DNA of 64,000 nucleotides from Oceanospirillales bacterium (GTDB taxonomy: Bacteria > Pseudomonadota > Gammaproteobacteria > Pseudomonadales > Balneatricaceae): contig JAAEYW010000008.1 in assembly GCA_018223185.1 (NCBI GenBank), forward strand, positions 62,001 to 126,000, in the 5' to 3' direction. The translations under genes and the position numbers were made by a program. This document shows, in pieces, positions 10,287 to 12,154 of this stretch; positions within the stretch are counted from its first letter, which is position 1, and each line of letters begins with the position of its first letter. A model generated the notes under the pieces. The model made no database searches and was not told the DNA's origin. It saw only the letters and a program-made list of their open reading frames with translations.

Positions 10287-10319
10287 AAAGGCCGTTACAG
10301 AGATGCAGCGGCCTTTTTT
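10287..10319 (+). terminator. sppA intrinsic terminator
   Basis: Stem AAAGGCCG / CGGCCTTT with six T. The T tail forms part of the 8-bp target duplication (TTTTTTAT) of the adjacent element. Confidence 0.85.
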
Positions 10320-10321
10320 AT

Positions 10322-10623
10322 GGCTCTTCGCGTGTTATGGGGAAGGATATAGAAATATCGATATCTTCATGGTTAAGCCCGGTTAGCGAGCTCTCCAGGC
10401 AAGAACCCCTGCAGAGCGATCTTTCATTGGGGATACCCTATCGTTGCAGGACGTCGCGCCAAAACCAACTGGCGGAGGTCTGAACGCTTGACGCTAAAAA
10501 GCGTTTTACCATAGCCCCCTGGGTACTGTGGTGAGTCTGTTTTAGATTCTAAGGGCCCCTGCAATATATAGCTCCACGACTATCTACCACGATGGAATCC
10601 TTTCCTGGTAAAGCGCGAAGGGC
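10322..10623. mobile_element. MITE-like element, copy 1 (302 bp)
   Basis: Non-coding. Its left end GGCTCTTCGCG...AAGGAT is an imperfect inverted repeat of its right end (reverse complement GCCCTTCGCG...AAAGGAT). It is flanked on both sides by the identical 8-bp sequence TTTTTTAT (10314-10321 and 10624-10631), as expected for a transposition target duplication. A second, closely similar copy lies at 11810. GGYTCTT ends with 8-bp AT-rich duplications recall the ISL3 family, so this may be a non-autonomous derivative; no transposase gene is present in the window. Confidence 0.8.
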
Positions 10624-10631
10624 TTTTTTAT

Positions 10632-11017
10632 TATCTGTGTGTGGGTTTAACCGTGTTAATTAAACATCTATGGCCTAAGCTGGTTAGGTTAGAACAACCT
10701 GATTAGGTTGCTGAACCACGGGCACTATTCACAAAGGGCACTCTTCGCGTCTGAACACAGAACTGAATAGAGATTTATCTGTATTACAACAGTTTAATTG
10801 TTTCGCAGGCCGGGAAGAAGACAGCTGAAACTGACTGTCACAGTGTTTGTAACTGAATCGCCCTTTGTCATTGATCAGTTTCACAGAGAACCCCACAGCT
10901 AAGTCGCTGCGGCAGCAAAATGCGCCAAACAGACTACCCGATATTTACCAGGCAGGTTATGGCTTGGTTTACGATCCGGCAGGCATACATTTAGCCGATA
11001 AATAAAGGTAAATCCGC
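10632..11017. other. Intergenic region before the cupin gene
   Basis: About 390 bp with no recognised gene. A 50-codon open stretch on plus (10853-11005) ends in TAA just upstream of the cupin ribosome site and reads as plausible protein (DIYQAGYGLVYDP), but it has no start codon with a ribosome site; it may be the remnant of a lost gene. The cupin ribosome site AAAGG lies at the right edge. Confidence 0.35.
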
Positions 11018-11404
11018 ATGCGAATAGCTAAAGACGATATTGATGTAAAGATGGAGATCCCAGGGGCTGTGATTCGTCAGCAAACTGAATTTGGCGACGC
11101 CACCGGGCTTGGGAAAATCAGTGGTGAGTACTTCAGTCTGTCGGCCGGTGTCGATACTACGCCGCTTTTTCTGGGGCTGGATGGTGATATGTGTCAGTGT
11201 CCACACTGGGGTTTTGTGATTAACGGCGAGCTGACCACCACTGACGCCAGTGGTAAACAGGAAACCGTCAGCGCTAACGATCTGTTTTACTGGCCGCCGG
11301 GTCACAATGTAAAAGTCACCGCCGACGCCGAGATTGTTATGTTCAGCCCTCAGAATCAGCACAGTCATGTGATCAGCCATATGATAGATAAAGTAAGTGC
11401 CTGA
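11018..11404 (+). CDS. Cupin-domain protein
   Basis: 128 residues. The single cupin barrel shows PHWGFVINGEL as motif 1 and DLFYWPPGHNVKV as motif 2, with a His in each, though the canonical metal set is incomplete. An N-terminal extension carries CQCP. Small cupins of this type bind metals or small ligands; the function is unknown. ATG 11018 follows AAAGG at good spacing. The gene sits alone between the two MITE-like elements. Confidence 0.75.
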   Translation: MRIAKDDIDVKMEIPGAVIRQQTEFGDATGLGKISGEYFSLSAGVDTTPLFLGLDGDMCQCPHWGFVINGELTTTDASGKQETVSANDLFYWPPGHNVKVTADAEIVMFSPQNQHSHVISHMIDKVSA

Positions 11405-11656
11405 ACATGAAGGTTTAAACCGGTCTGATTGAGAGTTATCGGAAGCGCCCTGTATCTATTATGGGGTGCATTTCTATCAATAGTTTGAGCGGTTTGAAGG
11501 GGAGATGCTGAGATCGAACAACCTGCTGAATTAGCCAGTGATAGCGTTAACGGCTCAGAATAATTGATTTTCAATAAGTCTTATCTGCACCGATCGGGTA
11601 GGAGATTTAAATACCGGTCTGTGTTTGTTACTTCAATCCTCTTTTCCGATTTGTCT

Positions 11657-11728
11657 TTTCTATTCAGATCAAAGTTTCTATTTAGGTAACAGTTTCTATT
11701 CAGGTCACAGTGTCTATCCAGGCCTGCG
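11657..11728. repeat. 18-bp tandem repeat, four units
   Basis: Units TTTCTATTCAGATCAAAG, TTTCTATTTAGGTAACAG, TTTCTATTCAGGTCACAG and the more diverged TGTCTATCCAGGCCTGCG follow one another without gaps. The overlapping ORF calls (11625-11840) are translations of this repeat, not genes. Confidence 0.85.
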
Positions 11729-11809
11729 CTTCCATCAGGTTATCGCTGTTAAGTGGTGGTATCGATTGAAGCGCGACAGGTCGTTATATCGCTTCTATAC
11801 GCTTTTTTT

Positions 11810-12146
11810 GGTTCTTCGCGGGTTATGGGGAAGGATATAGAAACATCGATATCTTCATTGTTAAGCCCGTTTGGCGAGCTCTCCAGGCAAGAACCCTGCA
11901 GAGCAATCTTTCATTGGGGATACCCTATCGTTGCAGGACCCCACGCCAAAACCAACTGGCGGAGGTCTAAAAAAATCGTTTACCACAGAGTGCACAGAGG
12001 ACACGGAGAAGCACAATTAATCAGGTTTCTCTGTGCTCTCCGTGTCCTCTGCGGTGAGTCTGTTTTAGATTCTAAGGGCCCCTGCAATATATAGCTCCAC
12101 TACTATCTACCACGATGGAATCCTTTCCCGGTAAAACGCGATGAAC
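11810..12146. mobile_element. MITE-like element, copy 2 (337 bp) with internal hairpin
   Basis: Ends GGTTCTTCGCGGGTTATGGG and its imperfect inverse (reverse complement GTTCATCGCGTTTTACCGGG). Identical 8-bp CTTTTTTT flanks lie at 11802-11809 and 12147-12154. The outer parts match copy 1 closely, including GGCGAGCTCTCC-type and TTTCATTGGGGATACCC segments. The middle differs: copy 2 carries a longer hairpin (about 11981-12057). The ORF 11753-12094 read across it is spurious. Confidence 0.8.
11981..12057. repeat. Inverted repeat of the widespread CACAGAGGACACGGAG type
   Basis: Arms CACAGAGGACACGGAGAAGCAC (11993-12014) and CTGTGCTCTCCGTGTCCTCTGCGG (12031-12054) pair over roughly 22 bp with small bulges. 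Sequences of this kind recur in many unrelated bacterial genomes and yield the well-known false translation HRVHRGHGE...LCALRVLCGE, present here in the ORF track. Confidence 0.8.
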
Positions 12147-12154
12147 CTTTTTTT

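Follow-up and report, generated by a model that had tools for sequence, protein, structure and literature searches.

An 8-bp A/T-rich target duplication and ends of the GG(T/C)TCTTCG type are the norm among ISL3 insertion sequences. The named IS nearest to those discussed below is ISAeme19, a member of this family, and its group (found in Aeromonas, Pseudomonas and Klebsiella plasmids) encodes transposases that are ~72-75% identical to that of an intact IS in a relative of the genome studied here (G017). Like the IS of this genus, the ISAeme19 group has the ends GGTTCTTCGCGG...GCGATGAACC and 8-bp A/T-rich duplications; its members are full IS with a transposase, whereas the elements that we describe carry none. 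A different comparison is offered by group IIC introns, which insert next to intrinsic terminators, lack terminal inverted repeats and move by RNA-based retrotransposition. The present elements resemble them in terminator-adjacent insertion and differ from them in both of the latter respects.

MITEs that are paired with a co-resident IS are already known, an example being MITEAba12 with ISAba12 of Acinetobacter, in which the transposase-less, 113-bp MITE is flanked by 9-bp AT-rich duplications whose sequences showed no trend according to the authors (PMC6382973). The elements described here are like MITEAba12 in that their ends match a co-resident IS, the identity is limited to those ends, and the duplications are AT-rich; they differ from it in size, in having duplications of 8 bp, and in the IS involved (PMC6382973). 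Within the 64,000-nucleotide stretch of DNA that we analyzed (the window), two such sequences are very probably copies of a non-autonomous MITE family, putatively moved by a resident ISL3 IS.

Two related elements with inverted ends

The two elements (Table 1) are non-coding and measure 302 and 338 bp, with termini GGCTCTTCGCG...GCGCGAAGGGC in element 1 and GGTTCTTCGCG...CGCGATGAACC in element 2. Their terminal inverted repeats are imperfect but clear, being best in element 2, and the ends are common to both elements while the interiors differ: element 2 carries a palindrome of ~74 bp that is lacking in element 1. A mechanical open reading frame of 113 aa spans element 2, and neither copy contains a transposase ORF. 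When element 1 was compared with its own genome by BLAST, non-self copies were recovered with E-values down to 4e-86, a repeat relationship far beyond chance.

Element 1 is flanked by identical copies of TTTTTTAT. On the left of element 2 stands CTTTTTTT, and a run of eight T follows its final CC; if the last C is given to the duplication, the element becomes 337 bp long and the right flank is an exact copy of CTTTTTTT. The sequence is compatible with either length and does not decide between them. The original prediction, which described two related non-coding sequences of 302 and 337 bp with matching imperfect terminal inverted repeats, proved correct on re-reading in coordinates, lengths and ends, and the exact 8-bp flanking duplications that it reported are exact for element 1 and, with the 337-bp reading, for element 2.

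Table 1. Features of the two elements and their target sites (positions in the window)
Feature	Position	Strand	Basis or remark
Intrinsic terminator hit by copy 1, AAAGGCCGTTACA-GAGA-TGCAGCGGCCTTT + T-tract	10287..10321	+	Hairpin scoring; empty in G010
Target duplication, left, element 1 (TTTTTTAT)	10314..10321		T-tract of terminator downstream of sohB-like gene
Putative MITE copy 1, 302 bp	10322..10623	+	Genome copies; empty site in G010
Left terminal inverted repeat, copy 1	10322..10344	+	Matches IS left end
Right terminal inverted repeat, copy 1	10598..10623	-	Matches IS right end
Target duplication, right, element 1 (TTTTTTAT)	10624..10631		Sequence; G010 comparison
Target duplication, left, element 2 (CTTTTTTT)	11802..11809		Sequence
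Putative MITE copy 2, 338 bp (337 if last C in duplication)	11810..12147	+	Genome copies; end alignment
Left terminal inverted repeat, copy 2	11810..11832	+	22/23 to IS left end
Internal palindrome ACCACAGAG...CCTCTGCGGT	11982..12055		In copy 2 and most other copies; not copy 1; also outside the element
Right terminal inverted repeat, copy 2	12122..12147	-	25/26 to IS right end
Target duplication, right, element 2 (CTTTTTTT if element ends at 12146)	12147..12154		Sequence

Family copies and empty sites in relatives

BLAST searches with either element against the 4.6 Mb genome (43 contigs) resolve a family of at least 16 copies. Eleven of these are complete (two on C5, three on C41, two on C42, three on C3 and one on C15), with lengths of 199-379 bp that reflect a variable interior. 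The remainder consist of one 5'-truncated copy on C12, one copy that is split by an IS, with its halves on C18 and C20, and partial copies at the ends of C2, C6, C28, C32, C41 and C42, which, as each shows one end only, amount to 3-6 elements. The 8-bp duplications are exact in element 1, C42:142 and the outer copy of C18/C20, and match at 5-7 of 8 positions (mostly 6 or 7) in the other copies.

Several features of the interiors were observed in passing. The copy on C15 contains a long C run, perhaps a slippage tract (L031). An insert, GTACCC..GGGCATGCTAA, is located within the left palindrome arm of some copies (L032, L033) and within the right arm, in inverted orientation, of others (L034, L037), as if the palindrome arms had exchanged sequence. 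Palindromes of the type ACCACAGAG...CTCTGTGGT also occur elsewhere in this genome (C23, C14, C13 and C4), and one arm is matched exactly in at least 120 stretches of viral or metagenomic contigs; the palindrome type seen in element 2 is not specific to this MITE.

Comparison with relatives reveals sites that lack the element. G010, of the same genus, has an exact empty site for element 1, in which the sequence after the sohB-like gene runs uninterrupted (...GCAGCGGCCTTTTTTATTGTCTG) with a single copy of the duplication (TTTTTTAT / CTTTTTTAT), versus the two that surround the 302-bp element here. We also built joined flanks for ten other copies and searched seven of them, element 2 included, against four relatives. 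Junction-spanning matches were found for five (C3:114, C42:142, C3:51, C41:274 and C41:380), and a weaker junction-crossing match with 70% identity was found in G009 for C41:405; for element 2, whose flanks have diverged, the search returned no match and no clean empty site among the four relatives. Since the joined flanks match the relatives uninterrupted, these are real insertions that are absent from the relatives. Both checks that had been proposed, for further copies in the genome and for empty sites in relatives, therefore came out positive, the latter for element 1 and five other copies and not for element 2.

The terminator after sohB is occupied in two further relatives, G004 and G017, by another element whose ends are similar (GGTTCTTCGCGAGTTATGGGAAGC; L122 and L121, respectively) and which is probably a second MITE family. 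In G004, related or shortened versions of the element are additionally arrayed in tandem on C112 (L089) and C100 (L111), and in the former, consecutive units are joined via a T-tract. When named genomes were scanned for the element's left end as a pattern, it turned up only in Amphritea pacifica and A. atlantica, which makes Amphritea the most likely genus.

A probable resident ISL3 insertion sequence

A PF01610 profile search of the element's own assembled genome returned no match to an ISL3 transposase, a result that is explained by IS interiors left unassembled at contig ends. Six contig ends share an identical left-end fragment of 64 bp starting GGTTCTTCGCAGGTTATGGGGAAATAG, with one base changed in one copy, while five share an identical right-end fragment of 55 bp finishing GGTAAAGCGCGATGAACC. 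At least six IS copies thus stop at contig breaks in this draft genome, and what is seen of each end is 55-64 bp only, as expected if a repeated IS has collapsed in a short-read assembly, which is how we interpret these fragments. With the exception of the one base, the two fragments match the termini of a 1314-bp IS in G009 perfectly; in that IS, an 8-bp repeat seems to shift the transposase frame close to the C-terminus. G017 contains a related IS of 1305 bp whose transposase frame, at 400 aa, is complete.

The Pfam profiles PF01610 (239 bits), PF13542 (42.7 bits) and PF14690 (33.4 bits) all match the G017 transposase, and the first two also match that of G009, with PF14690 below the cut-off. 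By these matches, both belong to the ISL3 family, and the G017 transposase has the full set of a DDE domain, an HTH and a zinc ribbon. The partner IS likewise combines ends of the GG(T/C)TCTTCG type with an 8-bp A/T-rich duplication, and the IS that splits the C18/C20 copy is nested inside the MITE with a duplication of its own, TAAAAAAA. Close relatives of the transposase are present in three genomes among the 369 covered by a class-wide search.

The full IS with the same ends that was to be looked for is therefore found, as the 1314-bp IS in G009 and as end fragments in the genome itself. The presence at contig breaks of the same genome goes beyond what the original prediction had proposed, and the suggested ISL3-type mobilization is supported by the shared ends together with the ISL3 Pfam membership of the IS transposase. 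We favor a resident driver because an IS with near-identical ends occurs in the same genome and its counterpart in a related genome belongs to ISL3.

Insertion at intrinsic terminators

To describe target choice, we oriented 31 insertion sites of MITEs and IS, from this genome and its relatives, by their T-run and scored the upstream hairpins. A strong hairpin precedes 24 of the 26 insertion sites with T6+ runs, versus 57 of 158 control intergenic T6+ runs from 464 kb of this genome (Fisher p = 4e-8). Both the hairpin score and its threshold were defined by us, and the direction of the result was unchanged at cut-offs of 14, 16 and 18. In 19 of 24 cases, the T-run begins exactly 8 nt ahead of the insertion. 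Element 2 is among the sites that lack a good hairpin. The predominance of intrinsic terminators among the insertion sites was not part of the original prediction.

The control of all intergenic T6+ runs overstated the terminator effect, and the excess shrinks under stricter controls in which G/C is required before the T-run and orthologous sites are removed. With G/C before the run, 22/24 sites compare with 53/115 controls (p = 2e-5); a further strict version gives 20/22 versus 40/70 (p = 0.0025). The contrast is reduced to 21/23 versus 47/77 (91% vs 61%; p = 0.004) with two G/C before the run and to 15/17 versus 28/52 (p = 0.01) in the strict T7+ version. Because stricter controls reduce the contrast, much of the preference can be put down to a GC-flanked T-run, and we lean slightly towards the view that the bias reflects where such runs are located and which insertions survive, rather than recognition of the hairpin or of termination. 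Consistent with this, the plasmid-borne relatives in the ISAeme19 group, whose duplications include AAAGATTT, TTTTTTAA, TAAAAAAA and TTTTTTTA, also use plain A/T runs: four of nine distinct scored sites are at terminators (L166, L169, L170/L171 and L172), and the others are mostly in such runs. Against it, the excess persists in every matched-control version, insertion is anchored at the stem/T boundary, and one terminator has been hit by different elements in different species. The hairpin may also contribute to targeting, and selection against other sites is a confounder of the terminator bias. The stronger proposal, that some ISL3 transposases recognize intrinsic terminators (through the hairpin or the terminating RNA polymerase) and insert exactly 8 nt past the stem as a safe-harbor strategy for IS and MITEs, is one that we put forward tentatively and consider rather doubtful. 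A search of the open-access literature found no report of ISL3 elements or MITEs targeting terminators, which is not proof of absence.

Other origins of the elements

Given ends that are near-identical to those of the IS, the elements could instead have arisen by internal deletion of an ISL3 IS and not be MITEs whose interiors are unrelated to it. This is improbable, as the agreement between MITE and IS extends for ~23 bp from the left end and 25-26 bp from the right, beyond which nothing aligns above chance to either of the two genus IS compared. Because only these terminal ~23-26 bp are common with the IS, we regard the elements as transposase-less MITEs. Still less probable is a role as a functional RNA or as a regulatory element whose structure is preserved after genes: both copies fold better than shuffled sequences (z = -7.4 and -4.0), but inverted repeats alone produce such folds, the occupancy of a site varies between species, and Rfam yielded no match above threshold, with sub-threshold chance matches only. 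A reading without transposition, in which the elements would be ordinary intergenic duplications of a REP/BOX-like type or dispersed by recombination, is scarcely credible: the internal palindrome is common to repeats elsewhere and the element is arrayed in tandem in one relative, yet 8-bp duplications with precise empty sites, a nested partner IS with matching ends, and the single-duplication site in G010, an observation of the kind that would refute this reading, all speak against it.

Proposed mechanism and implications

The MITE-family reading thus rests on multiple copies, IS-like ends, 8-bp T-rich duplications and clean empty sites in relatives. The earlier proposal of transposition without a transposase in the window is borne out in that the copies, the empty sites and the shared IS ends all agree. 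In the mechanism that we envisage, the resident IS copies would produce an ISL3 transposase of ~400 aa and DDE type, which would putatively bind the 23-26 bp ends of the MITE in trans and move it, inserting it at a staggered cut with an offset of 8 bp. Targets would preferably consist of a G/C and then six to eight T, a pattern that would mostly correspond, in this genome, to the T-tract of an intrinsic terminator, with one cut at the boundary between stem and T-tract and the other 8 nt downstream. On insertion the T-tract would be duplicated, and the upstream hairpin would keep an adjoining T-tract; because of this duplication, termination is probably left intact and the cost to the host low.

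These results link a MITE family with the IS that probably drives it. A T-tract target after terminator hairpins would explain how the elements multiply without damage to genes, and if the hairpin or termination itself is recognized, this would constitute a directly testable rule of transposon targeting.
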